The notes beneath the pieces were generated by a model. It had not been told where the DNA came from. It ran no database searches and was given only the letters and a program-made list of their open reading frames with translations. Positions 9,398 through 35,977 of a stretch of DNA of 40,054 nt are shown here, one piece after another. The DNA comes from Flavobacteriales bacterium. GTDB lineage: Bacteria; Bacteroidota; Bacteroidia; Flavobacteriales_D; Crocinitomicaceae. The position numbers and the translations under genes are program-made. The DNA lies in NCBI GenBank assembly GCA_947505255.1, contig CANNKP010000008.1, forward strand, positions 1-40,054, given 5' to 3'. How positions within the stretch are numbered: the stretch's first letter is position 1; every line of letters starts with the position of its first letter.

Positions 9398-10585
9398 ATG
9401 AAAGAACTTAAAGAAATAATTGAAACTTGCAAAAATTACGCTTTCGATTTAGACTTTACAAAAGCGAAAGAATGGAAAGCCGAAAAAGAGGGTCGGGTAT
9501 TGGTTGGTTATATGCCGATTTATTTCCCAAGAGAGATAATTCACGCTGCCAATGCACTACCAGTTGGCATCTTTGGAGGGGGTGATAGAAAACAAATTAT
9601 TAAAGGTGATGCCTATTATCAGTCTTACATCTGTCATATTCCTAGAAGTATCATTGAATTAGCATTGGACAAACATATGGACCATATTGATGGTTTCATT
9701 TTTCCTTCCATTTGTGATGTTATCCGAAATCTTTCTGGAATTTTTAAACAACAAAAAATTGGAAAATTTGTTAAATACATGGATTTTCCTCAAAATTTTC
9801 TACCACAAATTGGTGGAGTGTTCTACCAACAGGAAATGGAGCATGTTTTGAAATACATCAAAGAAATAAATGGTGTTGAAGTCACTAAAGAAGCATTAAA
9901 TCATTCGATTGAACTTTATAATAAGAATCGTCAAATGATTTCATACATCTATGATGTTCGTCAGAATTATCCTTGGAGATTAAGTATTGAAGACGTTTAT
10001 CATATAATTAGAGCAGGAACTGTGATTCCTGTCGAAGAACACAATGCTATTCTCGAAGATGTATGTGAACACATCAAAAAAGACATTGGTGTACCTCAAG
10101 ATAAAATCAAAGTTGTTATATCTGGAGCTTTTTGTGAACAACCTGCAATTGGATTGATCAAAGCAATTGAAGAAGCTGGATGTTATGTTGTTGACGATGA
10201 TTACATGTTGGGATCAAGAATGATTCTTGGCGACATCGATTCTACAAGTCACAATCCATTAGAAGCAATATCGAATTCATACATTACACAAAGTCAGTAT
10301 TCTTCATCAATTTACGATGTACATGATCCAAAAGAATATCGCTTAGCAAAAATTGTAAAAGACCGAGGAGCAAATGGAGTAATCTTCGCTTCAGCTAGTT
10401 TCTGTGATCCAAGTTTATTGGATGCCCCAATATTCCAAAATGCCTTTAATAAATTAGGTATTCGGTATATCGCATTCCAATACAGTGAAAATATTAACCA
10501 GTTTAAGGTAATCAAAGAACAAGTAGGTGCATTTTCAGATTCCATAAAATTGTGGGAAGACGAACCTGTAGTTGCTGCTCAATAA
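9398..10585 (+). CDS. bcrC: Benzoyl-CoA reductase subunit C (BcrC/BadD type)
   Basis: A 395-residue member of the 2-hydroxyacyl-CoA dehydratase (HgdA/B) superfamily, one of the two subunits forming the ring-reducing half of class I benzoyl-CoA reductase. Conserved cysteines that can bind a 4Fe-4S cluster occur at C79 (YICHIPRS), C106 (PSICDVIR) and in ASFCDPSLLD near the C-terminus. Length is close to Thauera BcrC (about 385). It is first of four genes in the order C-B-A-D, the same as Thauera bcrCBAD and Rhodopseudomonas badDEFG. The enzyme couples ATP hydrolysis to two-electron reduction of benzoyl-CoA to cyclohexa-1,5-diene-1-carbonyl-CoA. Probably soluble and oxygen sensitive. Confidence 0.88.
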   Translation: MKELKEIIETCKNYAFDLDFTKAKEWKAEKEGRVLVGYMPIYFPREIIHAANALPVGIFGGGDRKQIIKGDAYYQSYICHIPRSIIELALDKHMDHIDGFIFPSICDVIRNLSGIFKQQKIGKFVKYMDFPQNFLPQIGGVFYQQEMEHVLKYIKEINGVEVTKEALNHSIELYNKNRQMISYIYDVRQNYPWRLSIEDVYHIIRAGTVIPVEEHNAILEDVCEHIKKDIGVPQDKIKVVISGAFCEQPAIGLIKAIEEAGCYVVDDDYMLGSRMILGDIDSTSHNPLEAISNSYITQSQYSSSIYDVHDPKEYRLAKIVKDRGANGVIFASASFCDPSLLDAPIFQNAFNKLGIRYIAFQYSENINQFKVIKEQVGAFSDSIKLWEDEPVVAAQ

Positions 10586-10620
10586 AAATGGACATAATAA
10601 TCAATCTTGAATAACAAATT

Positions 10621-11904
10621 ATGGCACAGGAAGCACAAAAAGAAAAAAGTATGATCCTCCAAAAAGAGATGATCGATGGACTTTTTAATGATTTAGCACA
10701 AGTAAAAGAAACTGGAAAAAAAGTATGTTACACTTTCATTCCGGGAAATTTATCTGAACTAATAAGAACATTTGATATGCTACCCGTTTATCCTGAAATC
10801 AATGCACTACAAAGTGCAATGAGAAAGAAATCAGGCGGATACATCAAAGAAGCTGAAAAAAATGCACACTCAGAAGACGTTTGTACTTACGTAAAATGTG
10901 ATGTTGGAATGATGATGAAAGGAAATATTGGTCCAACTGGGACAAAAATTCCTGAACCTGATATCTTACTACTTAGTTATACCGGATGCTTTACATTCTT
11001 GAAATGGTTCGAAACACTAAAAAGAGAATATCCAAATGCGAAAGTCATCATGGTGCATACCCCATATCAGGAAAATGCAGAAATCACACCTGAAATGACC
11101 CAGTATATGGTGAAACAACTAAAAGAGGAAGTTATTCCTCAAATGGAAGAGGTCACAGGTATTAAATTTGACGAAGAAAAATTAAAAGGCTTTTTAAGAT
11201 TATCAAAAGAAGCGGAAGATTGGATTACAAAGATATTTGACTCAACAAAACACAAACCATCGCCAATTGATGCTTATTTTGCTGGAGTGTATTATATCGG
11301 ACCAATTAATATTGGATTCAGAGGAACACAAGAAGCAGTTGATTATTACAAAGAGCTTTATGATGAAATTCAAGAACGAATTCGTCTTGGACTTGGTCCT
11401 ATCACTCCGGAAGGAGAAATGAAAGAAGAAAAATATCGACTTGTGGTTGAAGGCCCACCAAATTGGACTAGTTTCCGCGAATTCTGGAAAATATTCTATG
11501 ACATGGGAGCTGTAATTGTTGCATCATCCTATACGAAAGTTGGTGGTGTATATGACCTTGGCTGGAGACATGATGCAGAAAGACCAATAGAATCTCTTGC
11601 GGAATATTGTATGAATTGCTATACGAATATGAACATTCCACAAAGAATCAGTCTCTTATCAAAATGTATCACCGATTATGACGCTGATGGTTATGTGACG
11701 AATTCAATTAAAAGTTGTAACTCCTTCTCAGCAGGACAATTGGCAATGATGCGTGACATTGAAGATCATCTAGAAGTACCTGTTGGCTTCATTGAATCTG
11801 ATCTTGTGGATCCTAGATACTTTTCTTATTCGAACATTAAAAACAGACTAGAATCTTATTTCCAAATGCTTGAACAACGAAAATCCTTGAAGGAAACTGT
11901 TTGA
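10621..11904 (+). CDS. bcrB: Benzoyl-CoA reductase subunit B (BcrB/BadE type)
   Basis: A 427-residue HgdB-like protein, partner of BcrC in the substrate-binding half of benzoyl-CoA reductase. Cysteines at C36 (KVCYTFIPGN), C88 and C93 (DVCTYVKCDVG), C123 (SYTGCFTF) and C366 (IKSCNSFSAGQ) are candidate cluster ligands. The C-terminal ESDLVDPRYFS stretch is typical of the family. Length fits Thauera BcrB (about 435). It lies 35 bp after bcrC and 47 bp before bcrA. BcrB is paralogous to the orphan subunit at 16011-17228, with which it shares the C36/C88/C123/C366 pattern. Confidence 0.88.
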   Translation: MAQEAQKEKSMILQKEMIDGLFNDLAQVKETGKKVCYTFIPGNLSELIRTFDMLPVYPEINALQSAMRKKSGGYIKEAEKNAHSEDVCTYVKCDVGMMMKGNIGPTGTKIPEPDILLLSYTGCFTFLKWFETLKREYPNAKVIMVHTPYQENAEITPEMTQYMVKQLKEEVIPQMEEVTGIKFDEEKLKGFLRLSKEAEDWITKIFDSTKHKPSPIDAYFAGVYYIGPINIGFRGTQEAVDYYKELYDEIQERIRLGLGPITPEGEMKEEKYRLVVEGPPNWTSFREFWKIFYDMGAVIVASSYTKVGGVYDLGWRHDAERPIESLAEYCMNCYTNMNIPQRISLLSKCITDYDADGYVTNSIKSCNSFSAGQLAMMRDIEDHLEVPVGFIESDLVDPRYFSYSNIKNRLESYFQMLEQRKSLKETV

Positions 11905-11951: not shown

Positions 11952-13370
11952 ATGGATAAATACTATTTAGGAATTGATTTGGGATCTACAACCTCAAAGG
12001 CTGTTATTATAAATGACAAAGATGAAATTGTTGGTAGAGGAATTACGAATACGAGAGCTAACTATAAAGTTGCGGCAGACGTAGCAAGAGATGAGGCTAT
12101 ATATGATGCCCGTTTCAATTTATTAGCTCGAAAAATAGGTGATGACGTATCGACCAAAACAGAGTTCAAAAAATACATGGAGGATTTGCGCAGTGTTTTT
12201 CAATATGGCCAATTCAAAAGAAGAATGGACAGTTTGGAAGATATGCTTAATAAAACGGTATCAAATTTTTCTTATGCAAATAAGGATGCAATAAGCACTG
12301 AACTAAAAAAGATTATAGAAACTATCCGTCCTCAGATTCGTCACGAATTCATCAATGGTAACTTGGGATCAAAAAATCAGTTCTTTAGAGATATTGTGAG
12401 TGAACGATACAATTCAGAAGTTGAAAATCTTGGTTCTGAATACTATGAACCACTCATGTTAGCTTTTGATAAAAGTATCACACCCGTGGAAAACGAAATG
12501 GTACAATATAGCTTTAATGAATTAGTACAGGAATCAATGAAGATTCTTGATGAAAAATACCAAGGATTGGCAGATCAACAAGAAGATGGTAGCAAAGAAG
12601 ACTGGTATTATGCTGAGCTTAATGTCATGAAAAACAATTACAAAGCTGTAGAACAAACTTTACGACAACACATAGATGAGATTGCCAGCCAAGACATTCA
12701 TATTGCAAAAATGACTGGAACAGGTTATGGTAGAGCACTTCTACCCTTCCCTGAAGATTGTATCAAATCAGAGATTTTATGTCATGCTTTTGGCGCTCAT
12801 GCGATTTTCCCAAACACAAGAACAGTTTTAGATATTGGAGGGCAAGATACAAAAGCAATTCAAGTCGATAGTCATGGATTAGTTACAAGCTTCCACATGA
12901 ATGACCGTTGTGCTGCAGGTTGTGGCCGTTATCTTGGATACATTGCTGATGAATTTGGATTATCTCTGAATGAATTAGGTCCAGAAGCTAACAAAGCGAC
13001 AAAAGAAACTACTATTTGTTCGACATGTACTGTTTTTGCAGGTGCCGAAGTAAAAGAACTTCTTCACAATGGTGAGGAACGACCAAATATTCTAGCGGGT
13101 CTTCACAAAGCTATCGTACAACGGGCTATGTCATTAATTGCTCGATCAGGAGGAGTTAAAAATGAATTTACGTTCACAGGTGGTGTTGCAAGAAATGAAG
13201 CTGTTTTGAAATATGTGAAGCAAATGGTTACAGATTCTTATGGAGAAGTAACTATGAATATTCATACAGATTCAATCTTTATGGGCGCACTTGGCGGTGC
13301 CATGTTCGCAAGAAGAAACATTAACGTAGATCTGCCGGTTGGTAAGAAAACCGAAATGTCAGAAGAATAA
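11952..13370 (+). CDS. bcrA: Benzoyl-CoA reductase ATPase subunit A (BcrA/BadF type)
   Basis: A 472-residue BadF/BadG-type ATPase of the acetate kinase/Hsp70/actin (ASKHA) superfamily. It starts with the phosphate-binding loop GIDLGSTTSKAV. A largely helical insert of about 200 residues (roughly 45-250) is followed by DIGGQDTKAI and NDRCAAGCGRYLG (C320, C324), then ICSTCTVFAGAEV (C356, C359) and the adenosine motif FTGGVARNEAV. One cysteine of each pair should bind the 4Fe-4S cluster shared with BcrD. Long-A with short-D is the Thauera pattern, unlike the two similar-sized ATPases of the Azoarcus Bzd type (recalled, not checked). It accepts electrons from ferredoxin and drives them to BcrBC by ATP hydrolysis. 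Confidence 0.9.
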   Translation: MDKYYLGIDLGSTTSKAVIINDKDEIVGRGITNTRANYKVAADVARDEAIYDARFNLLARKIGDDVSTKTEFKKYMEDLRSVFQYGQFKRRMDSLEDMLNKTVSNFSYANKDAISTELKKIIETIRPQIRHEFINGNLGSKNQFFRDIVSERYNSEVENLGSEYYEPLMLAFDKSITPVENEMVQYSFNELVQESMKILDEKYQGLADQQEDGSKEDWYYAELNVMKNNYKAVEQTLRQHIDEIASQDIHIAKMTGTGYGRALLPFPEDCIKSEILCHAFGAHAIFPNTRTVLDIGGQDTKAIQVDSHGLVTSFHMNDRCAAGCGRYLGYIADEFGLSLNELGPEANKATKETTICSTCTVFAGAEVKELLHNGEERPNILAGLHKAIVQRAMSLIARSGGVKNEFTFTGGVARNEAVLKYVKQMVTDSYGEVTMNIHTDSIFMGALGGAMFARRNINVDLPVGKKTEMSEE

Positions 13371-13402: not shown

Positions 13403-14260
13403 ATGGTAACACCAATTTATACAATGGGAGTTGATGTCGGAGGAAGCTACGTTAAGGCTGTCCTTATGTCATATGATCATGATTCCGGTGAGCACAAATT
13501 ACTGGATAAGCAAACAGAAAAAATAAGAAAACGGAATCCAAAAGATGTGGTGGTGGAAACTGTCGACGCAATATTGTTGCGAAATAAATTGAATTTCGAC
13601 AATGATATAGCCTATCTAGCTTCTACCGGTGAAGGGGAAATGGTTGAGAAAAAAACAGGACACTTTTATAGTATGACATCACATGCTAGAGGAGGTATCT
13701 TCTTTGCGCCAGAAGCCAAAACTGTAGTTGATATGGGTGCTTTGTACGTGAGAGCTATTAAGGTTGACCCAAGAGGAAAAGTTATTGATTATAAAATGAC
13801 AGGTCAATGTGCTTCTGGATCAGGGCAGTTCATAGAAAATATTTCTCGGTATTTAGGCCTAGCGATTGAAGAAGTCGGTCCAATTTCTCTAAAAGCAGAT
13901 AACCCAGAGGTTCCTTCAGGTATTTGTGCAGTATTAGCAGAAACTGATGTCATCAATCTTGTTTCCAAAGGATTATCTACTCCAAATATTGTTAAAGGAA
14001 TCAATATCTCAATTGCACAACGTGTCATCAAATTATTAGGTTCACTAAGAACTGAATCTCCAATCGTCTTGGTTGGTGGAATGGGTATGAACGAAGGGAT
14101 GACTCAAGCAATAGAAGAATTATCGGTAGAAAAGAACAAAGAAGACAACAAATTCATTTCTCACCCTGACTCAATTTATTCCGGTGCAATTGGTGCAGCT
14201 CTTTGGGGAGGATTCCGCTATTACAAATTGAAAGAAAAACAAGCTGCAGTTGTGGCATAA
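13403..14260 (+). CDS. bcrD: Benzoyl-CoA reductase ATPase subunit D (BcrD/BadG type)
   Basis: A 285-residue BadF/BadG ATPase without the helical insert of BcrA. Motifs: GVDVGGSYVKAV at 9-20, VDMGALYVRAI (109-119), GQCASGSGQF with C136, GICAVLAETDV with C175, and VLVGGMGMNEGM. C136 and C175 are the expected bridging 4Fe-4S ligands. Length matches Thauera BcrD (about 282). It lies 32 bp after bcrA and completes the reductase. The start ATG at 13403 fits both the family length and the P-loop position. Confidence 0.9.
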   Translation: MVTPIYTMGVDVGGSYVKAVLMSYDHDSGEHKLLDKQTEKIRKRNPKDVVVETVDAILLRNKLNFDNDIAYLASTGEGEMVEKKTGHFYSMTSHARGGIFFAPEAKTVVDMGALYVRAIKVDPRGKVIDYKMTGQCASGSGQFIENISRYLGLAIEEVGPISLKADNPEVPSGICAVLAETDVINLVSKGLSTPNIVKGINISIAQRVIKLLGSLRTESPIVLVGGMGMNEGMTQAIEELSVEKNKEDNKFISHPDSIYSGAIGAALWGGFRYYKLKEKQAAVVA

Positions 14261-14271: not shown

Positions 14272-16023
14272 ATGAAAGAACTGCATTCAGAAAAACAATT
14301 AGGCGATGTTTTACCAAACATTTCAAGTCTTTTAGAAAGGAATGTAAAGCTATTTGGAAATAAAATTGTTTATCAAGAAAAGAACAATCTTGGTGATTAT
14401 GAAGGAATCACTTGGAACGATTTTTATAATGATATTCAAAATATTGCTTATAACCTGAAAGAGGCAGGATTTTCAAAGGGAGACAAGATGGTTATCTTTT
14501 CCCGAAATTGTCAAAAGATGCTAGAATTGCAATTGGCGATTATGGCATTTGGTGGAATTGTGGTACCAATTTTTGCAAATTTCAAACAAGATACTGCCGA
14601 ATTACTGATCGATCATTCCGATGCTACCTGGCTAACGATTGATGGAACTCCTCAATTAGCGAATATAAGTGAGAATATTTTAACCAAGATCAAACACTTG
14701 TTTGTCTTCGAAAATCTTACAGATCGTCGTTTTCCTGAAATGAAATCATTTGACGAGTTATTAAAACCCAATCCTACTAAAACAAATTCTTTTGACTCAA
14801 ATATTGAACCTGATACGGTTTGTTTGAATATGTACACTTCCGGCACGATGGGGATTCCTAAATGTGTTCAATTGATGCATAAAAATATCTTGTCTCAGCA
14901 AGCGGCGTTAGATGTTGTATGGGAAGTGAATGAAGATGACCGTTTTCTCGCTTATTTACCTTGGCATCATAGTTTTGGTGGAATTTTTGAATTGTTCACA
15001 GCTTTATACAATGGTGCCACTTACTCGCTCGAAAGTAGTTATGGTCGTGATGCGAAAATGATTTTTGAAAATTGGAAAAAGATCAAACCAACGATTTTTT
15101 TCAGTGTTCCAAAAGTTTATCAATCATTATATGATCTCACCAGAGAAAGTAAAGAAGCGGAACAGGTTTTCTTTAACTCTGGTTTGAAATTCATCTTTAC
15201 TGCGGCGGCGGCTCTTCCTGAAAGGCTGTCTAATGAATTTGAAAAAAGAAATATTAAAGTGATTGAAGGCTGGGGATTAACTGAAACATCTCCTTGCTGT
15301 ACTTTAACAGATCCTGAACTAAAAAGAGAAACAGGTGTTGTCGGTAAACCGATTCCAGGTGTTAGTATTCGTATCGCCGACGATGAAGAAATTCAGGTAA
15401 AAGGTCCAAATGTGCTTCTCAGTTACTACAAAAATGATGAAGCGAACAAAGAACTTTTTACAGAAGATGGATGGTACCGAACAGGTGATGTTGGAGCAAT
15501 CACGCCAAATGGGTTGAAATTGATCTCACGAAAAGATCGAATATTTAAATTATCAAATGGCGAGAAAGTGATTCCGACCGATCTTGAAAAACAGATTGAA
15601 CTAAAATGTCATTATGTGCAATACGCTATCGTCTCAGGAAGTGGTGAAGAACATCCGGTTGCCTTGATTTTTCCAAACAAAAAACTACTTGAATCCCCAG
15701 ATTATGAACTAAGCCCAGAAGAAGGTTGTTTTTGTCCTAGAAGTTTAAATGAACTCGGAAAATGTCTAACTGGTTGTTTGGAAATTGCGAATAACAGAAT
15801 AGGGCAAAAATTCGCCAAAGTTAAATCGGCAGCGATTATTATGGATGAATTATCCCTTGAGAATCGAACCCTTACACCTTCAATGAAAATGGCACCTAAG
15901 AATGTTATTGAAAAATACAAAGCTCACTTATTGAATATGTACGGTGAAAATGTTCCTGTGGATGAAGAAGTTTATGTTATTGAATTAGAGTCTACCGAAA
16001 CATCCAAGAAATGTACAAAATAG
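14272..16023 (+). CDS. AMP-forming acyl/aryl-CoA ligase (long-chain acyl-CoA synthetase-like)
   Basis: A 583-residue adenylate-forming ligase. The P-loop is YTSGTMGIPK, the A5 motif is GWGLTETSP, the A7 motif is YRTGDVG, followed by RKDRIFKLSNGEKV. The C-terminal catalytic-lysine region is LTPSMKM. The layout is nearer long-chain (FadD15/FAA1) ligases than benzoate-CoA ligases. The longer frame opens at 14203 inside bcrD; ATG 14272, 11 bp after the bcrD stop, is preferred because the earlier 23 residues are not family-like. It overlaps the next gene by 13 bp. It could activate benzoate or another carboxylic acid, or a 2-hydroxyacid for the downstream HgdB-like module. The substrate is not determinable from sequence. 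Confidence 0.82.
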   Translation: MKELHSEKQLGDVLPNISSLLERNVKLFGNKIVYQEKNNLGDYEGITWNDFYNDIQNIAYNLKEAGFSKGDKMVIFSRNCQKMLELQLAIMAFGGIVVPIFANFKQDTAELLIDHSDATWLTIDGTPQLANISENILTKIKHLFVFENLTDRRFPEMKSFDELLKPNPTKTNSFDSNIEPDTVCLNMYTSGTMGIPKCVQLMHKNILSQQAALDVVWEVNEDDRFLAYLPWHHSFGGIFELFTALYNGATYSLESSYGRDAKMIFENWKKIKPTIFFSVPKVYQSLYDLTRESKEAEQVFFNSGLKFIFTAAAALPERLSNEFEKRNIKVIEGWGLTETSPCCTLTDPELKRETGVVGKPIPGVSIRIADDEEIQVKGPNVLLSYYKNDEANKELFTEDGWYRTGDVGAITPNGLKLISRKDRIFKLSNGEKVIPTDLEKQIELKCHYVQYAIVSGSGEEHPVALIFPNKKLLESPDYELSPEEGCFCPRSLNELGKCLTGCLEIANNRIGQKFAKVKSAAIIMDELSLENRTLTPSMKMAPKNVIEKYKAHLLNMYGENVPVDEEVYVIELESTETSKKCTK

Positions 16024-25510: not shown

Positions 25511-25975
25511 ATGTTTTCAAAATCATGCGAATATGGCCTTCAAGCAATTATATACATTGCTTTGAACGCTTCAGAGAATAAGAAAGTTGGTTTAAAAGAA
25601 ATTGCAGAACAGCAGGAAATTCCAACACAATACTTGAGTAAAATCCTTCAACAACTTGTTAAACACAAAATATTGGATTCAATGAAAGGACCAAATGGTG
25701 GCTTCTTTCTTAAGAAAAATCCTGAAAAATTAACTTTATTAGAAGTTGTAACAATTATTGACGGCACAGATCTTTTTGACCAATGTGGTATTGGATTGAA
25801 AAAATGCACAGACAAAAATCCATGTCCGATTCACCATGAATATAAATTGGTGAAGGCTCAAATTAAAAAAATCTTTGAGGAGAAATCGATTAGTCAGTTA
25901 TGCAATGATATCCATGAAGGGAAAAGTATTTTGAATTTTAATTCATCAAATCAGTTGTCCTTGGCACGTCACTAA
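25511..25975 (+). CDS. Rrf2-family transcriptional regulator with Fe-S-type cysteines
   Basis: A 154-residue Rrf2 protein (IscR/NsrR/RsrR relatives). The N-terminal winged helix starts MFSKSCEYGLQAIIYIAL, with the wing at KGPNGGFFL. The three cysteines expected for an Fe-S sensor occur as C-x6-C-x5-C in DQCGIGLKKCTDKNPCPIH (about 97-111). Such proteins sense oxygen, nitric oxide or Fe-S status. It follows the aromatic operon by 101 bp and overlaps the convergent radical SAM gene by 30 bp. It could tell an anaerobic, Fe-S-rich pathway whether clusters are intact, or be a general Fe-S or NO regulator. Target genes are unknown. Confidence 0.88.
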   Translation: MFSKSCEYGLQAIIYIALNASENKKVGLKEIAEQQEIPTQYLSKILQQLVKHKILDSMKGPNGGFFLKKNPEKLTLLEVVTIIDGTDLFDQCGIGLKKCTDKNPCPIHHEYKLVKAQIKKIFEEKSISQLCNDIHEGKSILNFNSSNQLSLARH

Positions 25976-28352: not shown

Positions 28353-31166
28353 TTAAGCTATAATTTCGTTATTTAATGCTTTCATTTTCGCCAATATATC
28401 TTCCGGTTTAATTGGCAAAGAGGTAATTCTTACACCGACCGCATCATAGATTGCATTGGCGATGGAAGGAATCGATGGATGCAATGCTCCTTCTCCTGTT
28501 TCCTTCGCTCCAAAAGGTCCTTCTGGATCAATTGTTTCAATAATATTTACATGAATATCTGGCGTATCTAGTGTTGTCGGAATTTTGTAATCCAATAAGT
28601 TGGCATTCATCAATAAACCTTTCACATACCTCATCTCTTCACTAACTGCTTGACCTAAGCCCATATGCCATGATCCTTCTAATTGTCCTTCCACAGCCAA
28701 TGGATTCAATGCTTTTCCACAATCGTGTGCTCCCCACATATTGAGAACTTTAACGAAACCAGTTTTGGGATCAACTTGTACTTCTGAAATCATTGCACCG
28801 AACGTATACGAAGGACTCAATCCAGCTCCTGCTCCTTTGAAATCACCTCCCAATTTTGGTGAATTATAGCATCCACTAGTATTTAAAGCCCCAACATGTC
28901 GTGTTCCCATCTCAATTGCTTCTACCCAACTTAAATTGACTTTCATGTCATTGGAGAAAACTCTTTCATTGGCAATGTTTAATTCTGAAATGTCTAAATT
29001 AGTATATTTTGCTACTGCTGTAAGTACTTTTTCTTTTAAATTTTCAGCCGCCATTTTCGCAGCATTTCCAGCCATGAATGTTACTCTACTTGAATAACTT
29101 CCTAAATCAATCGGAGTTAATAAGGTATCAGCTGCAACAACAAATAAATTGTCCATACTTAATCCTAAAACCTCTCCAACAACAATTGCTAGCATAGTGT
29201 CTGAACCTTGACCAATGTCACTCGCACCAGATGTTATCAGTACACGTCCATCCATATCTACTTTCAAATGAACCACCGATTGGGGATATTCATTCCAGTG
29301 AATTGGCAAAGCACTACCACTGATAAAGAATCCACAAGCGACTCCGTAACCGTGACCAAAAGAAAGTTTCTTAAATTTATTCTTCCAATCAGATTGCTCC
29401 ATCACTCTTTTCAAACTTAATGCACTACCATTGGATGTAATTCTATATTCTCCAACCGTTAAAGTATCCGAATCTAAGAAGTTCTTGAAGCGTAACTCAC
29501 ATGGGTCGATATCCAAATTTCTTGACATCATATCCAACATAGTCTCAACTGCAAACCTTGAATTTACTGCTCCATGACCACGCATTGCACCACTTTGCGG
29601 TTTATTAGTGTAAGCTCTTAATGTTTTGAAACCGAAATTATCAATTTTATATGGAGCTTGAAGTAATACTCCGTTGTAGTAAGAAGTTACTACACCAAAA
29701 CTTCCATATGCTCCACCATCAATAACAATATCAGCATCTAAAACCTGAATTTTTCCTTCATTACTCATCCCTAATTCCACTTTCATTTTGGAAGGGTGAC
29801 GACCATGATTAGTTAAGAATACTTCTTCTCTATTGAAGCGCATTTTAACAGGACGTCCAGTAATTTTCGCTAGATAGGAAATAATAATTTCATGTGGAAA
29901 AGGATCACTTTTTCCTCCAAATCCTCCACCAACATAAGGTTTAATTACTCGAATTCGGTTCATTGGTGTTTCTAAAACTTTCGCTAAGAAACGTTGTAGA
30001 TAATGAGGTACTTGTGTAGCTGTGATAATTGTCAAACCATTTTCATCCCAATAAGCTGTTGCCGCATGAGGTTCTGTAAATCCATGATTGATTCCCTGAA
30101 ATTCAAATTCAACCGCAAGGCGATTATCCGATTCTTCCAATCCCTTTTGTTGATCTCCAAAACGTAATTCCGCCTTTTTATGAATATTATTATTGAATTT
30201 GGTATGTGCATGAATCTTTTCATTTTCACCAATGTCAACAATTGAATCATCCATTTCTAAGAATGGCTTATAGGGTGTGTAATCAATTTTTATCAATTTA
30301 CATGCTTCCGTAGCAATCTCTTCTGTTTCAGCAACAATCGCTACCACAATTTCTCCAATATACCTAGTTTTTTCAACCGCCAAAGCTGTCTCATCTTGAG
30401 ATATTGGCAAAACACCAAAAGAAATAGGTAATTCCTTTCCTGTTAAAATGGCTTTTACACCTTCTAGATTTTTTGCTGCTTCTAAATGAATTGCATCAAT
30501 TTTGGCATGGGGATGAATACTTCTCACAAATTTGCAGAACAAAGCATTTTTTGTTTTGATATCATCAGCGTATTCAGCGTTTCCATTCGCTTTTTTAGCA
30601 GCTTCTATATACGGACGAGCCTGTCCGACCATTCCAAATTTTGCCGCTTCATTTTCTTCTTTGTGGCAATTCCCATGCTCATCTCTATTTGAACAACCAG
30701 TTGACTCACTTTCGTGAACATATGATTCAACTGCATCCACAATTTTTTTATAACCAGTACAACGACATAAATTTCCAGAAAGCGCTTCTTTTATTTCATC
30801 TCTAGTCGGATTAGGATTTTCTTCTAAATAAGAAAGAGTTGTCATAATCATACCTGGAGTACAATACCCGCATTGAATAGCTCCATGTTCCACAAACTTA
30901 TCTTGTAACTTGTGAGGAACATCTTTGTCTGCAATTCCTTCAATGGTTGTAATAGAAGCACCTTCCATTCTCAAAGCTGGAGTAATACAACTTTGAACGG
31001 GCTCTCCATCTACAATAACAGTACAAGCGCCACAACTTCCTTGTTCGCAGCCTATTTTCGTACCTGTCAAATTTACTTTCTCACGGATAACTTTTGATAG
31101 AGTATCGTGTTCGTTCACCAATACCTTATGCTTGGTTCCATTTACAGTTAATGTTAAGATCTTCAT
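28353..31166 (-). CDS. hcrCA: 4-hydroxybenzoyl-CoA reductase, fused 2Fe-2S (HcrC) and molybdenum (HcrA) subunits
   Basis: A 937-residue protein joining two subunits that are separate in Thauera. Residues 1-~155 are HcrC-like: the plant-type 2Fe-2S motif C40/C45/C48/C60 (CEQGSCGACT) and the second cluster C99/C102/C134/C136 (CGYC, CRCTGY). A polar linker (~160-185, Cys/His-rich) leads into the HcrA-like molybdopterin domain: GGGFGGKSDPF, RGHGAVNSRFA, SDIGQGSDTM, and GAKETGEGA with the active-site Glu. The complex removes the para-hydroxyl of 4-hydroxybenzoyl-CoA to give benzoyl-CoA. The summed length fits HcrC plus HcrA (about 161 + 769). Its start overlaps the xdhC stop by ATGA. Confidence 0.87.
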   Translation of the reverse strand: MKILTLTVNGTKHKVLVNEHDTLSKVIREKVNLTGTKIGCEQGSCGACTVIVDGEPVQSCITPALRMEGASITTIEGIADKDVPHKLQDKFVEHGAIQCGYCTPGMIMTTLSYLEENPNPTRDEIKEALSGNLCRCTGYKKIVDAVESYVHESESTGCSNRDEHGNCHKEENEAAKFGMVGQARPYIEAAKKANGNAEYADDIKTKNALFCKFVRSIHPHAKIDAIHLEAAKNLEGVKAILTGKELPISFGVLPISQDETALAVEKTRYIGEIVVAIVAETEEIATEACKLIKIDYTPYKPFLEMDDSIVDIGENEKIHAHTKFNNNIHKKAELRFGDQQKGLEESDNRLAVEFEFQGINHGFTEPHAATAYWDENGLTIITATQVPHYLQRFLAKVLETPMNRIRVIKPYVGGGFGGKSDPFPHEIIISYLAKITGRPVKMRFNREEVFLTNHGRHPSKMKVELGMSNEGKIQVLDADIVIDGGAYGSFGVVTSYYNGVLLQAPYKIDNFGFKTLRAYTNKPQSGAMRGHGAVNSRFAVETMLDMMSRNLDIDPCELRFKNFLDSDTLTVGEYRITSNGSALSLKRVMEQSDWKNKFKKLSFGHGYGVACGFFISGSALPIHWNEYPQSVVHLKVDMDGRVLITSGASDIGQGSDTMLAIVVGEVLGLSMDNLFVVAADTLLTPIDLGSYSSRVTFMAGNAAKMAAENLKEKVLTAVAKYTNLDISELNIANERVFSNDMKVNLSWVEAIEMGTRHVGALNTSGCYNSPKLGGDFKGAGAGLSPSYTFGAMISEVQVDPKTGFVKVLNMWGAHDCGKALNPLAVEGQLEGSWHMGLGQAVSEEMRYVKGLLMNANLLDYKIPTTLDTPDIHVNIIETIDPEGPFGAKETGEGALHPSIPSIANAIYDAVGVRITSLPIKPEDILAKMKALNNEIIA

Positions 31167-31981
31167 AATGATTCTACTCTATTCGATTTAGAAATGTGTT
31201 TCTCATTGTTCTTTGAAGAATTAATTTCATTCTTCACTTTAATAATTTTTGCTAAAATACTTATGGCAATTTCTTCAGGTCCTGTAGCATTTATATTATA
31301 CCCCATCGGCATGTCAACTTTTAATAATTCCTCAAGATCATACAAAGAGGTTGAAAGAAACATCTTCTTCGTAATTTCAACTTTTCGTTGACTCCCAATC
31401 ATTCCCAAATATGCCTTAGGCTTGTTCAAACAAAAAGCAAGGATTTCGCGATCTAGAAAGTGGTCGTATGTCATAATTGCAATATATGATCGGTCATCAA
31501 AAGGAAGCATAGGTAATACTTCGAGATATGAAACGTTCATCTTATTAACTTCCTTACATTGCAATTGATCCATTTCTTCTTTTCGTTCATCGATAACGAA
31601 AACCTCAAAATCCAACGCTGAAGCAAATGTCGATAAAGCACGTCCAACATGACCTGCTCCAAAAATGTACAATTTATTTGTAGGCATAATAGATTCAATA
31701 TAAACAGTTACACTTCCTCCACAACACATTCCATGCTGTTGTAAAAGATTATGTTCAAATTCTCCCGATCTCTTTGTTTCTATAACATCAAGAGCATCTT
31801 TGATTACCCTCTTTTCAAAATTCCCTCCCCCAATAGTACCATAAATATTACCGCTCTCGGTTACTATCATTTTAGCCTCCGTTTTAAGTGGAGTTGAGCC
31901 TTTTGTGGATACAATTATACAGAGTGCATGATGTATGCCTTCTGCTTTTAATTCTTCAACTTTTTTATAAATACTTACCAC
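31163..31981 (-). CDS. xdhC: XdhC/CoxI-family molybdenum cofactor insertion protein
   Basis: A 272-residue XdhC-family protein. The N-terminal domain has GTIGGGNFEKRVI and HGMCCGGSVTVYIE; the C-terminal Rossmann domain has LYIFGAGHVGRALSTFA and MTYDHFLDREIL, ending with YLGMIGSQRK and NATGPEEIAISI. Family members bind the molybdenum cofactor, help its sulfuration and deliver it to xanthine-dehydrogenase-family enzymes. The target here is the fused HcrCA encoded next, with which the gene overlaps by 4 bp. It lies 6 bp after the mocA-like gene. Confidence 0.87.
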   Translation of the reverse strand: MVSIYKKVEELKAEGIHHALCIIVSTKGSTPLKTEAKMIVTESGNIYGTIGGGNFEKRVIKDALDVIETKRSGEFEHNLLQQHGMCCGGSVTVYIESIMPTNKLYIFGAGHVGRALSTFASALDFEVFVIDERKEEMDQLQCKEVNKMNVSYLEVLPMLPFDDRSYIAIMTYDHFLDREILAFCLNKPKAYLGMIGSQRKVEITKKMFLSTSLYDLEELLKVDMPMGYNINATGPEEIAISILAKIIKVKNEINSSKNNEKHISKSNRVESL

Positions 31982-31987: not shown

Positions 31988-32572
31988 CTAGCTAAAATAT
32001 TTCTGATACTCTTCCGGAGTATCTATATCCACAGTAACTAATTCATCCTCTACAACAACATTCAATCGTTTTTTCAATTTCAACTCATCTCTTAGAACCG
32101 ACTCTTTGGGGCAAGTCGCTAATTCTTTTAAAGTGACTTTGTCGATTAATATCGGGTGCCCACCTTTTCCATTATTAACAGGGCAAATAAAATTGGCTTC
32201 CGATTTATTTTTAATAAGTGCTTCAAGTGTTAAGCGCTCAATAAAAGGTGTATCAGCATTATGAATAAAACAGTGATCCACATCCACCAATTCCTCAATA
32301 CCTAATTGTAATGAGTAAAATTTTTCATACTCAGGATAATGATTGATCACAAAAACTGGTTTATCTATCATCAATGAACAAAGTTGATTTAACTGTGCTA
32401 CTTTATCCTTTTGAGTTACAACGATAATCTGTTTTATTCCAAATTCATGAAAAGAGGAAATGATATTTTCAAAAAAAGTGACTCCATTTTTCATTTTTAA
32501 AAAAAATTTGCACTGACCCATTCGTTTTGAATTTCCAGCTGCTAACAAAATCAATCCTGTTGAACTTCTCAT
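31988..32572 (-). CDS. mocA: MobA/MocA-like molybdenum cofactor nucleotidyltransferase
   Basis: A 194-residue NTP-transferase. The N-terminal nucleotide motif LILLAAGNSKRMGQCKFFL is the MobA/MocA signature, and HNADTPF and GKGGHPILI follow. MocA attaches CMP to molybdopterin for enzymes of the xanthine oxidase family, while MobA attaches GMP for the DMSO reductase family. Position upstream of xdhC and hcrCA favours the MocA role, giving the cytosine dinucleotide cofactor used by Hcr. The exact nucleotide is inferred. It lies 27 bp after the ferredoxin gene, with a TGAT-N4-ATCA dyad in the gap. Confidence 0.78.
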   Translation of the reverse strand: MRSSTGLILLAAGNSKRMGQCKFFLKMKNGVTFFENIISSFHEFGIKQIIVVTQKDKVAQLNQLCSLMIDKPVFVINHYPEYEKFYSLQLGIEELVDVDHCFIHNADTPFIERLTLEALIKNKSEANFICPVNNGKGGHPILIDKVTLKELATCPKESVLRDELKLKKRLNVVVEDELVTVDIDTPEEYQKYFS

Positions 32573-32599: not shown

Positions 32600-32965
<366 letters not shown>

Positions 32966-33094: not shown

Positions 33095-33098
33095 TTTT

Positions 33099-34949
33099 AT
33101 GGTGTCTGACAAAAACACAATAGAGGTAGAAAAGATTGTAATCAAATTTGCAGGAGACTCTGGAGATGGAATGCAACTTACAGGTACTCAATTTAGTGAT
33201 ACTTCATCTTTATTTGGGAATGATATTGCTACATTCCCCGATTATCCATCAGAAATTAGAGCTCCTCAAGGAACTATTTCTGGTGTTTCAGGATTTCAAG
33301 TACATATTGGAAAATCAGGAATATATTCGCCTGGAGATATTGCAGATGTATTGGTTGCTATGAATCCAGCTGCTCTAAAAGCTAATTTAAATTCTCTTAG
33401 AAAATCAGGTATAATTATTACCGACATTGATTCTTTTGACAAGAAGGGCCTTGAAAAAGCTGAATATATAACGAATCCATTGGAAGATGGTAGTTTAGAA
33501 GATTATAAAATAATAGAAGCACCAGTAACTTCTCTCACAAAAAAATGTATAATCGATCTCAACTTAGGATTGGATAATAAATCTATTTTAAGATGTAAAA
33601 ACATGTTTACCTTGGGAATGGTTTATTGCATGTTCAATAGATCTTTAGAGCAATCAGAAAATTTTATTACGACAAAATTCAAAAAGAAGCCAGAATTGGT
33701 AACTGCTAATCTTGCCGCTCTTCATGCTGGACATAACTATGCATATACAATTGAATTACTAGCTTCTGCCTATACAGTTCTTCCTGCTGACAACAAAGCT
33801 GGATTGTATCGCAACATTACAGGAAATCAAGCCGTAGCCTGGGGAGTAATGGCTGCTTCTGAAAGATCTGGGAGAGAAATATTTTTAGGATCTTATCCTA
33901 TTACCCCAGCTACTGATATCATGCACGAATTGGTAAAACATAAATGGTTTGGAGCAAAAGTTTTTCAAGCAGAAGATGAAATTGCCGGTATTTGTTCATC
34001 AATTGGTGCAAGTTTCGCTGGAAATCTAGCGATAACAACAACTTCAGGACCAGGTTTAGCTTTAAAAGGCGAAGCAATTGGTTTAGCTATTATGGCAGAA
34101 CTTCCTTTAGTAATTGTGAATGTACAAAGAGGTGGACCATCAACAGGTTTACCAACAAAAACAGAACAATCCGATTTAATGCAAGCTTTATATGGAAGAA
34201 ATGGTGATAGTCCAGCGATAGTAATCGCAGCAGGGTCACCATCCGACTGTTTTGATTTTGCCTATATCGCTTGTAAATTGGCATTAGAACACATGACTCC
34301 AGTTATCTTATTAACCGATGGTTATTTAGGGAATGGAGCTGAAGCATGGGCCATTAAGAAAACAAAAGATTTACCATCAATAACTCCTTGTTTAGTAAAT
34401 AAGAATGTAAAAGACTGGGAACCATATCTTAGAAATCCGGATACATTGGCAAGATATTGGGCTACTCCAGGAATGCCCGGTTATGAACATAGAATTGGAG
34501 GTTTAGAAAAACAAGAAGTTTCGGGGAAAGTTTCTCATAATGCTGAAAATCATGAAAAAATGACTTTGATGCGTGCTGCAAAAATTGAAAGAGTTAAAAA
34601 ATTCATTCCTCTTCAAAAAGTAAAGGGAAAAGAATACGATGACTTATTAATTGTAGGATGGGGAGGAACTTATGGAACCGTCTTCGGAGCCGTTACAGAT
34701 TTACAAGCTGAGGGATACAATATTGCGTTCTGTCAGTTTAATTACATTAATCCTTTACCAGAAAACACCGCTGAAATTTTCAGTAAATACAAACGAATTA
34801 TGGTCTGCGAGTTAAATATGGGACAATTTGCCAATCATTTAAGAGCTACTATACCTCAGTTTACGTATATGCAACACAATAAAATTCAAGGTCAACCATT
34901 TACGATTGATGAATTAAAAAATAAATTTATTAAAACTTTAGCAGAATGA
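33099..34949 (+). CDS. korA: 2-oxoacid:ferredoxin oxidoreductase, fused gamma-alpha subunit
   Basis: A 616-residue protein. Residues ~10-195 are the gamma domain (KFAGDSGDGMQLTG, PDYPSEIRAPQGT). Residues ~225-600 are the alpha domain (FLGSYPITPATDIMHEL, FQAEDEIAGICSSIGAS, TTTSGPGLALKGEAIGLA, VNVQRGGPSTGLPTKTEQSDL). This layout is that of KorA-type 2-oxoglutarate:ferredoxin oxidoreductase, which oxidises 2-oxoglutarate to succinyl-CoA and reduces ferredoxin. In Thauera, korAB next to the bcr genes regenerates reduced ferredoxin for benzoyl-CoA reductase. The stop overlaps the korB start (ATGA). Many Bacteroidota carry korAB for central metabolism, so the pathway link rests on location and on the shared promoter pattern. 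Confidence 0.9.
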   Translation: MVSDKNTIEVEKIVIKFAGDSGDGMQLTGTQFSDTSSLFGNDIATFPDYPSEIRAPQGTISGVSGFQVHIGKSGIYSPGDIADVLVAMNPAALKANLNSLRKSGIIITDIDSFDKKGLEKAEYITNPLEDGSLEDYKIIEAPVTSLTKKCIIDLNLGLDNKSILRCKNMFTLGMVYCMFNRSLEQSENFITTKFKKKPELVTANLAALHAGHNYAYTIELLASAYTVLPADNKAGLYRNITGNQAVAWGVMAASERSGREIFLGSYPITPATDIMHELVKHKWFGAKVFQAEDEIAGICSSIGASFAGNLAITTTSGPGLALKGEAIGLAIMAELPLVIVNVQRGGPSTGLPTKTEQSDLMQALYGRNGDSPAIVIAAGSPSDCFDFAYIACKLALEHMTPVILLTDGYLGNGAEAWAIKKTKDLPSITPCLVNKNVKDWEPYLRNPDTLARYWATPGMPGYEHRIGGLEKQEVSGKVSHNAENHEKMTLMRAAKIERVKKFIPLQKVKGKEYDDLLIVGWGGTYGTVFGAVTDLQAEGYNIAFCQFNYINPLPENTAEIFSKYKRIMVCELNMGQFANHLRATIPQFTYMQHNKIQGQPFTIDELKNKFIKTLAE

Positions 34950-35977
34950 TTAAAGAAGATTGTTCAACAACGTGCGCTTTAAGTCGAAAAGATTTTGTCA
35001 GTGATCAACAAGTTAAATGGTGTCCTGGTTGTGGTGATTATGCGATATTAAGCGCCGTTCAAAATACACTTCCTTCATTAGGAAAGAAAAAAGAAGATAT
35101 CGTTTTTATTTCTGGAATTGGTTGTTCTTCTAGATTTCCGTATTATATGGACACTTATGGTTTTCATACAATTCACGGTAGAGCTGCTGCAATTGCCTCT
35201 GGAGTGAAAATGGCAAATCCAAATTTATCTGTTTGGGAAGTTACTGGTGATGGAGATTCATTAGCAATTGGAGGGAACCATTTTATACACCTTATCAGAA
35301 GAAATATTGATTTGAACATCCTTCTCTTTAACAATAAAATATATGGCTTAACAAAAGGTCAGTTTTCTCCTACATCGGATCAAGGATTTGTCACTAAATC
35401 GTCTCCACATGGAACAATAGAAGAACCTTTTTTACCTGGAGAATTAGCACTAGGAGCTAAAGGGAATTTCTATGCTCGTGTTCCTGATACAAATCCTAAA
35501 TTCATGACGGAAGTCTTCACAAGAGCCGCTATACACAGAGGAACGTCATTAGTAGAAATTCTGCAAAACTGTGTCATTTTTAATGATGACATTCATGAAG
35601 CAATAACTTCCAAAGAAACCAAAGAAGATGCTCAATTGATTTTAGAACATGGAAAACCTATGATTTTCGGCAAAGAAAAAAACAAGGGAATTCGTTTGAA
35701 TGGTTTAAAATTGGAAGTTGTTACGATTGGAGAAAATGGAGTTACAGAAGAAGATTTATTAATTCACAATGCTCATGACGAAGATCCGACATTGCAATTA
35801 ATGTTAATAAGAATGTCTCTTCCTGAATTTCCAGTAGCATTGGGAGTAATTAGAGAAGTTTCAACTTCTGTATACGAAGATGTTTTGATTGATCAGATTA
35901 AAACAGCTAAAGAAAAGACAAAGTATAAAAGTTTAGATGATTTCTTCAACTCTGGAGACACTTGGCAAGTGAAATAA
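34946..35977 (+). CDS. korB: 2-oxoacid:ferredoxin oxidoreductase, beta subunit
   Basis: A 343-residue TPP-binding subunit. It has WCPGCGDYAILSA (Cys pair near 28-31, cluster ligands), SGIGCSSRFPYY, HGRAAAIASGVKMANP, and the TPP/Mg motif GDGDSLAIGGNH with the later Asn in NNKIYGLTKGQFSPTS. It pairs with KorA; together they form the heterotetrameric enzyme. It overlaps korA by 4 bp. After the stop there is a 231-bp gap to the peptidase gene with no clear hairpin terminator. Confidence 0.92.
   Translation: MIKEDCSTTCALSRKDFVSDQQVKWCPGCGDYAILSAVQNTLPSLGKKKEDIVFISGIGCSSRFPYYMDTYGFHTIHGRAAAIASGVKMANPNLSVWEVTGDGDSLAIGGNHFIHLIRRNIDLNILLFNNKIYGLTKGQFSPTSDQGFVTKSSPHGTIEEPFLPGELALGAKGNFYARVPDTNPKFMTEVFTRAAIHRGTSLVEILQNCVIFNDDIHEAITSKETKEDAQLILEHGKPMIFGKEKNKGIRLNGLKLEVVTIGENGVTEEDLLIHNAHDEDPTLQLMLIRMSLPEFPVALGVIREVSTSVYEDVLIDQIKTAKEKTKYKSLDDFFNSGDTWQVK

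Follow-up and report, generated by a model that had tools for sequence, protein, structure and literature searches.

The window analysed here, a 40,054-nt stretch from a Flavobacteriales bacterium (Crocinitomicaceae; GCA_947505255.1, CANNKP010000008.1, positions 1 to 40,054, forward strand), carries a catabolic island that almost certainly encodes an anaerobic ring-degradation pathway of the class I (bcr) type. Comparison of the flanks with genus-mates sets the true extent of the unit at 8338–36155 (27.8 kb; no strand assigned), a site that is empty in two of them. Embedded among the bcr genes is a module that comprises a synthetase, an additional HGD-D protein (HgdD2) and a fusion of a PanE dehydrogenase with a HadI-type ATPase. 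As a whole, the gene set is probably explained as anaerobic ring degradation with a linked module on a mobile island.

The sequence-only reading had named bcrCBAD, dch, had, oah, a dehydrogenase fusion, a thiolase, hcr, Mo-cofactor helpers, a ferredoxin and korAB, and all of these were found as intact ORFs and identified by profiles. Subunits C, B, A and D of a class I bcr-type benzoyl-CoA reductase lie together on the forward strand: bcrC (9398–10585), the active-site subunit bcrB (10621–11904), and the ATPase subunits bcrA (11952–13370) and bcrD (13403–14260). Against the curated NCBIfam models, BcrC (TIGR02263; 434.6 bits, cut-off 421.2), BcrB (TIGR02260; 657.5 bits, cut-off 486.6) and, by a narrow margin, BcrD (TIGR02261; 314.4 bits, cut-off 312.9) exceed the cut-offs, and BcrA has the right family as its best match at 422.6 bits, under the cut-off of 578 (TIGR02259). 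The BcrB alignment contains Cys columns 80, 119 and 347 and Glu 51, with the third Cys in 11 of 12 rows and the remaining row gapped; the comparison for these active-site residues is the Cys95/128/380 and Glu65 cluster site of BzdO, as given in the accessible text of PMC11971306. The best PDB match of BcrC is MbdN of Thauera chlorobenzoica (9g87_B, 206 bits).

The genes for the subsequent steps follow on the same strand. They encode a thiolase (19118–20398; TIGR01930, over cut-off), the 6-hydroxycyclohex-1-ene-1-carbonyl-CoA dehydrogenase Had (20419–21489; TIGR03201, 454.6 bits, cut-off 338.7; best PDB match 7qul, 356 bits), the 6-oxocyclohex-1-ene-1-carbonyl-CoA hydrolase Oah, named a hydratase in NCBIfam (21512–22615; TIGR03200, 588.9 bits, cut-off 464.5; also assigned by tree), the cyclohexa-1,5-dienecarbonyl-CoA hydratase Dch (22619–23392; TIGR03189 as best match, 229.7 bits, under the cut-off of 292.5), and a 3-hydroxyacyl-CoA dehydrogenase/enoyl-CoA hydratase fusion (23400–25409; PF02737, PF00725, PF00378).

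The 4-hydroxybenzoyl-CoA reductase genes are on the reverse strand and comprise hcrB, the FAD subunit with a four-Cys insertion (27416–28348), and an hcrC-hcrA fusion that joins the 2Fe-2S and Mo subunits (28353–31166). They are accompanied by profile-identified genes for an XdhC-type maturation factor (31163–31981) and a MocA-like Mo-cofactor nucleotidyltransferase (31988–32572), and by a 4Fe-4S dicluster ferredoxin gene (32600–32947; NF033683, over cut-off), all reverse. On the forward strand lie korA, the 2-oxoacid:acceptor oxidoreductase alpha gene (33099–34949; TIGR03710, over cut-off), and korB (34946–35977; TIGR02177, 239.4 bits, under the cut-off of 261.9). None of the three Hcr parts reaches the cut-offs of the curated models TIGR03193/03194/03195: HcrA (785.7 bits, cut-off 994.6) and HcrB (208.6 bits, cut-off 404.6) have the right family as best match, and the HcrC part scores 172.3 bits with the Hcr model (cut-off 257.8) and slightly more with XdhC (177.3). 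The best PDB match of HcrA is 1rm6_A (566 bits; the next scores 334) and that of HcrB is Thauera 1rm6_B, with whose insertion the four Cys align. The 1rm6 structure is HcrABC of Thauera aromatica, in which the four insertion Cys bind 4Fe-4S. The island enzyme has the same three parts as HcrABC but differs in that the gamma and alpha subunits are fused into one 937-residue chain.

Besides the AMP-forming ligase, the extra HGD-D protein and the PanE-ATPase fusion, four genes had gone unmentioned in the sequence-only reading. One encodes a FabG-like SDR-family oxidoreductase (8417–9154, reverse; Pfam adh_short_C2; NCBIfam FabG 247.6 bits, under cut-off), which is counted as a cluster member; four relatives have an SDR gene of 60–62% identity next to hcr or bcr. 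The others encode an Rrf2-family regulator (25511–25975, forward; TIGR00738, over cut-off), an MnmL/YtqA radical SAM protein (25946–26875, reverse; TIGR01212, over cut-off) and a hemerythrin-like protein (26865–27413, reverse; PF01814). The MnmL/YtqA gene adjoins hemerythrin or hcr genes in several relatives.

The proposed route from 4-hydroxybenzoyl-CoA to glutaryl-CoA plus acetyl-CoA is supported by this gene content, the flux being deduced from known families. Aromatic acids would be converted to CoA esters, and Hcr would remove the 4-hydroxyl group from 4-hydroxybenzoyl-CoA. BcrAD would spend ATP to push ferredoxin electrons into BcrCB for the dearomatisation of benzoyl-CoA, and KorAB would refill the ferredoxin. 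Dch, Had and Oah would then open the ring to 3-hydroxypimeloyl-CoA, from which the dehydrogenase fusion and the thiolase would yield glutaryl-CoA and acetyl-CoA. Glutaryl-CoA dehydrogenase (GcdH), which would form crotonyl-CoA, is encoded outside the island, with orthologues 57–72% identical in all five genomes searched, and inside the cluster at one locus (L104). PF00115, the sole respiratory profile searched, covers haem-copper oxidases and NO reductases and has a match.

The same BcrCBAD, Dch, Had, Oah, ferredoxin and korAB set makes up the class I bcr/mbd pathway of Thauera and its relatives. In contrast to Thauera, the island resides in a member of the Bacteroidota, has the dehydrogenase/hydratase and HcrC-A fusions, and includes HgdD2, the PanE-activase and the synthetase among the bcr genes. 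Proteobacterial clusters are not known to contain this module.

The island was probably gained recently by horizontal transfer. This is suggested by two close genus-mates (G037 and G082), in which only about 315 bp separate the same two flanks. Nucleotide matches to both genomes, at 80–95% identity over long stretches of flank, end at 8337 and restart at 36156, with spacers of 313 and 321 bp between. The earlier proposal that any transfer was not recent is not supported, given this empty site and the lack of an over-cut-off Oah in all eight genus-mates sampled, these two included. The flanks are native to Bacteroidota, as had been expected: the M1 peptidase is 67–94% identical in five genomes of the same genus, 56–63% in three family members and 49% in one genome of the same order. 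The flanking ValS gene is present, but only as a C-terminal piece (39695–40054). For the loci L035 and L036, Oah is shared at 92% and BcrA at 89%, and the M1 peptidases of their genomes are 45–46% identical, below the family range, in a comparison in which 7 of 11 genomes had no M1 match. The hgdD2 and thiolase genes of these two loci are far less window-like than the genes on either side; since L037 shows similarly low values for panE and the activase, exchange of a single block is claimed only for the synthetase, hgdD2 and the thiolase.

An ancestral presence of the island in the genus, followed by loss from the relatives sampled, appears unlikely. Such a history would fit its base composition, which resembles the flanks as previously noted (GC 0.351 against 0.343 and 0.331), and the DNA identity, whose mean over aligned regions does not exceed about 74% in the comparison of 88 loci. 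It would also fit the results that no integrase, IS or other mobile gene was seen among the ORFs scanned and that no tRNA was seen. It accords poorly with the lack of an over-cut-off Oah in the genus-mates; the nearest Oah kin appear to lie outside the family, and the Oah tree places the family member G020 on the far side of a branch with good support (99/92). A chimeric contig, in which assembly or binning had attached the island to foreign flanks, is hardly credible: the MAG is 69.3% complete and in 260 contigs, but both flanks match one genus-mate neighbourhood on either side of a single intergenic site, composition is uniform, and the two 200-bp borders have no direct or inverted repeat of at least 9 bp in common.

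The module starts with an AMP-forming acyl-CoA ligase with a Cys-rich C-terminal domain (14272–16023, forward; PF00501), for which the listed ORF start is TTG 14203 and the first ATG is 14272. It continues on the same strand with hgdD2, a second, HadB-like alpha-type HGD-D subunit (16011–17228; PF06050, fold and pocket residues), and the PanE/ApbA dehydrogenase fused to a BadF/HadI-type ATPase, the activase (17230–19080; PF02558, PF08546, PF01869). Linkage was assessed in the 45 of the best 80 Oah loci whose stretch includes bcrA, B or D. The hgdD2, activase and synthetase genes are each present in 44 of these 45 stretches and panE in all of them; the sole exception for hgdD2 (L088) has the gene on the same contig as bcrB, which brings its linkage to 45/45. 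The stretch lacks hgdD2 at 24 loci; 21 of these hold the gene elsewhere in the genome (two of them partial), two have only BcrB-level matches and one has none. Among 22 genomes searched that bear HgdD2, five gave no BcrB-level match, and one of these five (L114) has bzd-type genes. The activase is fused to PanE in 39 of 54 loci, and the AMP-forming ligase is replaced by an ADP-forming synthetase in others. The module occurs with class I benzoyl-CoA genes in Bacteroidota, one Calditrichota MAG and one KSB1 MAG. No aminotransferase was recognised among ten neighbours scanned. The structure model of LigC is of low confidence (pLDDT 68.7), and its fold resembles AMP-forming ligases only weakly (best E 2.4e-3). 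Selenocysteine was considered for in-frame TGA codons of two HgdD2 genes (G509, G514) and one PanE gene (G258), but all three are normal end stops.

The HgdD2 model (pLDDT 93) has its best fold match in HadB (3o3m_A) of the (R)-2-hydroxyisocaproyl-CoA dehydratase, with TM values of 0.90/0.92, compared with 0.88/0.82 for BzdO and 0.86/0.80 for MbdO. Sequence matches in the PDB also place HadB first (161.6 bits; MbdO 123.4, BzdO 68.7), although the curated HadB model NF052455 gives 212.8 bits, which does not reach its cut-off of 750. Double-cubane cluster proteins (DCCP) belong to the same superfamily as HgdD2, but the weaker fold match (TM 0.76–0.78) led us to reject this assignment. DCCP is homodimeric according to the available part of PMC11971306, and PDB titles list a reductase of its own, DCCP-R.

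Cys 80, 119 and 347 and E51 of HgdD2 are present in all 56 sequences, as are N52, V122 and W293, which match the single HadB row used in the pocket comparison and differ in the BcrB, MbdO and BzdO rows. Column 122 may be off by one residue, since PMC11971306, as far as its text was available, gives alanine rather than valine for HadB at the His131 place. HgdD2 shares W30 and P36 with the BzdO rows too, and its S33 aligns with Ser44 of the solved BzdO. The invariant polar residues H53, N350 and N352 and a basic residue at 120 are private to HgdD2 and, judged from the alignment, would suit a substrate more polar than a bare phenyl ring. Cys 31 and 290 are also invariant, beyond the cluster Cys. 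In the alpha-subunit tree the hgdD2 (92/98) and bcrB (100/99) groups hold, and HgdD2 stands apart from HadB, its long branch falling on the side of BcrB and MbdO; because of the long branches, the relation between HgdD2, bcrB and HadB is weakly placed.

We modestly favour a dehydratase-like function for the module, as predicted from sequence and structure models. The fold, several pocket residues and the partner genes make an (R)-2-hydroxyacyl-CoA dehydratase the most likely identity, although its odds are lowered by the pocket residues that BzdO shares. The activase scores 163.7 bits with TIGR00241 (cut-off 125.4) and is closest in the PDB to HadI (4eht), and the PanE part is closest to 2ew2, 8wl1 and 3wfi. 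The PanE family includes a D-mandelate dehydrogenase that uses benzoylformate, according to the portion of PMC4230899 at hand. PanE would make an (R)-2-hydroxyacid, which the synthetase would convert to the CoA ester; once the activase had charged it, HgdD2 would remove water from this ester to give an enoyl-CoA. Unlike HadBC/HadI, the module has no beta subunit of its own, has an activase usually fused to PanE, and is tied to benzoyl-CoA genes. A dedicated beta subunit, which is among the defining parts of such dehydratases, was found in none of five genomes, whose HGD-D proteins are BcrC, BcrB and HgdD2 only; HgdD2 may act as a homodimer or pair with BcrC. Aryl-lactates from phenylalanine and tyrosine are tentative substrate candidates; thiolysis of the enoyl-CoAs formed from them would yield benzoyl- or 4-hydroxybenzoyl-CoA. 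It is more speculative that the module is a new kind of archerase-driven dehydratase, HadB-like and lacking a beta subunit of its own, with an activase often fused to the D-2-hydroxyacid dehydrogenase that would supply its substrate, which would convert aryl-lactoyl-CoA via cinnamoyl-type CoA to benzoyl-CoA and so allow Phe and Tyr to be mineralised without oxygen.

The presence of BcrC as the sole beta-type HGD-D protein in the five genomes is also compatible with a rather improbable alternative, in which HgdD2, BcrC and the PanE-fused activase form a second BCR-like ring reducer for a substituted aryl-CoA (e.g., 3-hydroxybenzoyl-CoA) and PanE oxidises a later hydroxylated intermediate. The tight linkage to class I BCR, which extends to a bzd-type genome (G258), the position of HgdD2 in the tree and the invariant polar residues near the cluster agree with such an enzyme. 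Against it, HadB ranks first by both fold and sequence and three pocket columns are HadB-like, the likely beta partner in G258 is BzdN, of another subfamily, and the PanE family is known for 2-oxo and 2-hydroxy acids. Action on C5 acids (2-oxoglutarate/2-hydroxyglutarate/glutaconyl-CoA) in either direction, tied to KorAB, would require just such a PanE, synthetase, HGD-D protein and activase, and the ADP-forming synthetase could save ATP, but this very improbable reading was set aside because GcdH, found in 5/5 genomes and in the L104 cluster, makes the route needless.

Ring cleavage without oxygen is mostly attributed to Proteobacteria and a small number of other anaerobes. In the genome collection, nearly all of the best 80 Oah loci belong to Bacteroidota or Ignavibacteria, and similar clusters are widespread yet patchy in the phylum. 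The Oah tree comprises 77 of these 80 loci (three had no ORF passing the filter), four further genomes and the window; it is unrooted and has no proteobacterial row because the BcrB search against plasmids gave only seven records (22–26% identity). A stretch of one Azoarcus plasmid was left out of the analysis. The statement that no Bacteroidota example has been characterised stands for isolates, none having emerged from literature searches that mostly stopped short of full texts, but MAGs with benzoyl-CoA genes have been published. In the accessible parts of these accounts, Bacteroidia MAG 18 expresses benzoyl-CoA degradation together with peptidases and peptide uptake (PMC8099898), and Melioribacter MAGs, likewise Bacteroidota in the GTDB sense, have a complete benzoate route (PMC8115662); those parts describe neither the gene clusters nor the HgdD2 module.

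A near-complete class I gene set is thus patchily distributed, and apparently exchanged, across Bacteroidota. The record titles of these bacteria mention lakes, bogs, groundwater and dive samples, and part of the local aromatic carbon turnover may therefore be theirs. The module, in which a catalytic HGD-D subunit lacks a beta partner and an ATP-driven electron activator is naturally fused to a dehydrogenase, would represent either a dehydratase of new architecture or a second enzyme that dearomatises rings.

The window is one entire contig of a 2.76-Mb metagenome-assembled genome (MAG; completeness 69.3%, contamination 3.83%). Profile searches place an ABC transporter, three POT peptide transporters, TatD and a ThiF-type protein on the left flank, and an LTA4H-type M1 peptidase, a CHU_C secretion-signal protein, a hypothetical protein and the end of ValS on the right, with an uninterrupted catabolic cluster (8338–36155) between both flanks. 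The POT-type transporters lie in tandem in the native flank (1836–6921) and adjoin this island. BcrC, BcrB, BcrD, Had and Oah score over the curated equivalog cut-offs; BcrA, Dch and all three Hcr parts score under them. HcrB (27416–28348) retains four cysteines that align with the insertion of 1rm6_B, and the solved structure nearest to HcrA, part of an hcrC-hcrA fusion (28353–31166), is 1rm6_A (566 bits; next best 334 bits), so that Hcr is the likeliest reading of this molybdenum enzyme. These results bear out the near-complete class I benzoyl-CoA and 4-hydroxybenzoyl-CoA pathway proposed by the sequence-only reading, and the benzoyl-CoA pathway is real and chemically ordinary. In several relatives (L027, L036, L081 and L084), MnmL and a hemerythrin-like gene (25946–27413 in the window) accompany hcr.

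An acyl-CoA dehydrogenase within the cluster of a compared locus, L104, has glutaryl-CoA dehydrogenases as its nearest kin (3d6b, 427 bits). Because its orthologues (57–72% identity) are found in five of five genomes searched, including the window's own, glutaryl-CoA from the ring pathway can be processed onward. All seven genomes searched encode a PF00115 protein, from the haem-copper oxidase superfamily, to which NO reductases may also belong; PMC11971306 describes class I BCRs as a property of facultative anaerobes.

The earlier statement that no characterised Bacteroidota example is known agrees, for isolates and enzymes, with the literature listed, whose titles and abstract openings revealed no isolate or enzyme study of benzoyl-CoA degradation in Bacteroidota, Bacteroidia or Ignavibacteria; in PMC10803450, the phylum terms sought are not present. 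It does not extend to MAGs: a Bacteroidia MAG from a nitrate-reducing benzene culture is reported to express anaerobic benzoyl-CoA degradation along with peptidases and peptide uptake (PMC8099898), and Melioribacter MAGs are reported to contain a complete benzoate route (PMC8115662). Among 100 genomes of the window's family, three, from as many genera, have an Oah above the cut-off; in the phylum sample of 395 genomes, three, from as many families, have BcrB at E ≤1e-60. A named-contig scan using an alignment of five Oah proteins as the query gave at least 493 relatives; the best 80, each at least 69% identical over its best segment, were retained, and statements on named loci apply to these 80. 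The Oah tree of 77 of these best 80 loci comprises, by title, 67 Bacteroidota, six Ignavibacteriota, one Chlorobiota, one Calditrichota, one KSB1 and one other. The benzoyl-CoA pathway is rare per genome, yet widespread.

In two genomes of the same genus (G037 and G082), the left-flank match ends at window position 8337 and the right-flank match restarts at 36156, with 313 and 321 bp of repetitive spacer only at the empty site; the long flank matches are 80–95% identical to the window. The spacer (L202:6710–7022 and L203:14791–15111) consists of diverged direct repeats with a spacing of ~100 bp, and may be an insertion hotspot. A third genus-mate (G051) has the same flanking gene order, with a ThiF–M1 gap of 1.9 kb and no cluster gene within it; left-flank genes were not found within the stretch read in G063 and G017. 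Of the eight genus-mates that the family sample contains, the genomes above among them, none carries Oah over the cut-off. Genus-mates have the M1 peptidase next to the island at 94, 94, 80, 68 and 67% identity, and three other family members have it at 56–63%; the M1-side flank is therefore native, and the flanks place in Bacteroidota. The base composition of the cluster resembles that of the flanks, as first noted (GC of 0.351 vs. 0.343 and 0.331, with similar GC3), and gives no hint of transfer.

The Oah proteins closest to that of the window among the best 80 of at least 493 loci (92% identity; tree support 100/98) belong to L035 and L036, where BcrA is 89% identical. The M1 peptidases of these genomes are only 46 and 45% identical to the window's, under the family range; at E ≤1e-60, an M1 peptidase match was absent in 7 of 11 genomes searched. 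Oah of G020, from the same family, is separated from the window Oah by a 99/92 branch. This conflict between gene and genome supports exchange within Bacteroidota, although MAG contamination can mimic such a conflict. Loss of the island from the relatives, instead of gain, is a live rival, and is favored by a mean identity of the aligned island parts of at most ~74% among 88 loci compared, from which no donor emerges. No repeats of at least 9 bp are common to both 200-bp island borders.

The clusters of relatives vary in content. G258 has a bzd-type BCR in place of the bcr type, with both HGD-D subunits over the cut-off; bzd-type class I clusters in Bacteroidota (G258 C15:101000–112700, locus L143, and also L114) include an ORF of ferredoxin size and a NAD(P)-binding/FeS protein of 860 aa. 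A second Hcr-like molybdenum enzyme lies next to panE or the thiolase in L033 (9194–12898), L085 (4967–8760), L082 and L087; that of G392 combines an XdhB-like FAD subunit with an alpha part that reaches 947.7 bits against the 4-hydroxybenzoyl-CoA reductase model (785.7 for the copy in the window). Saccharopine-dehydrogenase-like genes (four loci, including L051:869–2017; Pfam assignment from the L029 copy) stand between bcrA and bcrD in L029 (5537–6661) and L031 (16971–18089), and Nramp-like membrane proteins (four loci; Pfam assignment from the L073 copy) in or next to the cluster in L073 (11317–12582), L078 (11895–13160) and L085 (11877–13133). Seven loci, e.g., L035 (11485–13994), L036 and L053, carry another three-gene 2-oxoacid oxidoreductase, which is 27–30% identical to KorAB and has its gamma-like POR protein encoded separately. 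The had gene of G014 (L029:15682–16717) is split into two overlapping ORFs by a frameshift or an assembly error.

Three genes between bcrD and the thiolase overlap or almost touch: an AMP ligase (14272–16023), hgdD2 (16011–17228) and a PanE-ATPase fusion (17230–19080). These module genes remain with the benzoyl-CoA genes despite altered gene order; the Bacteroidales-type L101 reads bcrCBAD, ADP synthetase, panE, had, oah, dch, hgdD2, activase. Among the best 80 of at least 493 Oah loci, 45 contain bcrA, bcrB or bcrD, and these, scored by identity thresholds, include panE in 45, hgdD2 in 44, an activase in 44 (absent in L073) and an AMP/ADP synthetase in 44 (absent in L080). In L088, the sole bcr locus without hgdD2 in the stretch, hgdD2 sits on the same contig as bcrB. 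Whole-genome searches covering all 24 of the best 80 loci without hgdD2 in the stretch, together with L095, which has it, revealed an orthologue of at least 344 bits in 22 of 25 genomes (two partial), corresponding to 21 of the 24 loci and including the Calditrichota and KSB1 MAGs; the remaining three gave BcrB-level matches only (two) or no match (one). Five of the 22 have HgdD2 without any BcrB-level match, one being the bzd-type L114 genome, where synthetase, hgdD2 and panE are consecutive. In the phylum sample, HgdD2 occurs in 4 of 395 genomes, the three BcrB-bearing ones and G258, whose HgdD2, PanE and activase are at scattered positions.

Of the 54 loci showing both PanE and activase (best 80 of at least 493), 39 have them fused and 15 separate. 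Of the same 80, 25 have a full AMP ligase and 28 have an ADP-forming synthetase, one locus having both. The Cys-rich C-terminal domain of the ligase (15544–16020) has five invariant cysteines in 21 aligned rows, and occurs as a separate protein of 147–188 aa in 15 of these 80 loci, of which 13 also have the ADP-forming synthetase; it is often retained where that synthetase stands in for the AMP ligase (e.g., L035:5298–5768). L035/L036 hgdD2 and thiolase are 64–70% identical to those of the window, against 82–92% for bcrA, bcrD, had and oah; the L037 values are 85% (hgdD2) and 78% (thiolase). Because the L035/L036 synthetase is also unlike the window's, part of the synthetase/hgdD2/thiolase block may have been swapped in one piece.

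HgdD2 belongs to the alpha-type (HadB/BcrB-like) HGD-D proteins. In sequence it is closer to HadB, the alpha subunit of (R)-2-hydroxyisocaproyl-CoA dehydratase (161.6 bits), than to MbdO (123.4) and BzdO (68.7). Its predicted fold (pLDDT 93; model alignment of 49 HgdD2 rows, one BcrB and one BzdO) is nearest to HadB (3o3m_A; TM 0.90/0.92). At six pocket columns (W30, S33, P36, N52, V122 and W293), the HadB residue, represented by one row, is found in 56 of 56 HgdD2 and differs in 12 of 12 BcrB. N52, V122 and W293 alone clearly differ from BzdO too; W30 and P36 also occur in the BzdO rows, and S33 has Ser44 as its aligned counterpart in the solved BzdO. The assignment of column 122 is unsure, because PMC11971306 gives alanine, not valine, for HadB at this place, that of His131. 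Cys31 and Cys290, near Ser33 and Tyr289 in sequence, are invariant in 56 of 56 HgdD2. In the alpha-subunit tree HgdD2 is not beside HadB, and its 212.8 bits to the curated HadB model are far under the cut-off of 750.

HGD-D genes number exactly three (bcrC, bcrB and hgdD2) in five of five genomes, four of which are 99–100% complete. Since a 2-hydroxyacyl-CoA dehydratase is described as an alpha-beta heterodimer (PMC11574389) and no further HGD-D gene is present in these genomes, HgdD2 must, judging by gene content, form a homodimer or borrow BcrC. HgdD2 thus comes without a dedicated beta subunit, a trait that helps to define the HAD family, but probably works like a HAD.

Gene content, linkage, predicted fold, residues and the fusion are observed, and from these we infer a pathway assignment. 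Because they are fused, PanE and the activase would act in one pathway; the PanE family includes a D-mandelate dehydrogenase (PMC4230899). The PanE product would be ligated to CoA to become the HgdD2 substrate. Aryl-lactates from phenylalanine and tyrosine would be the simplest fit for the module substrate, because the cluster ends in benzoyl-CoA and encodes an enoyl-CoA hydratase domain, Hcr adjoins it and the thiolase adjoins the module; tyrosine would lead to 4-hydroxybenzoyl-CoA, accounting for Hcr. Against an aryl-lactate dehydratase stand the missing beta subunit, polar residues private to HgdD2 and the lack of an aminotransferase among ten scanned neighbours. Among the literature listed, nothing joined dehydropantoate reductase to 2-hydroxyacyl-CoA dehydratase, benzoyl-CoA reductase or activase in Bacteroidota; the one paper listed concerns Actinobacteria and does not mention dehydropantoate. 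Peptides entering via the POT transporters of the flank would be one source of the aromatic amino acids. The pathway stands out by its host range, its mobility and, most of all, the module linked to it.
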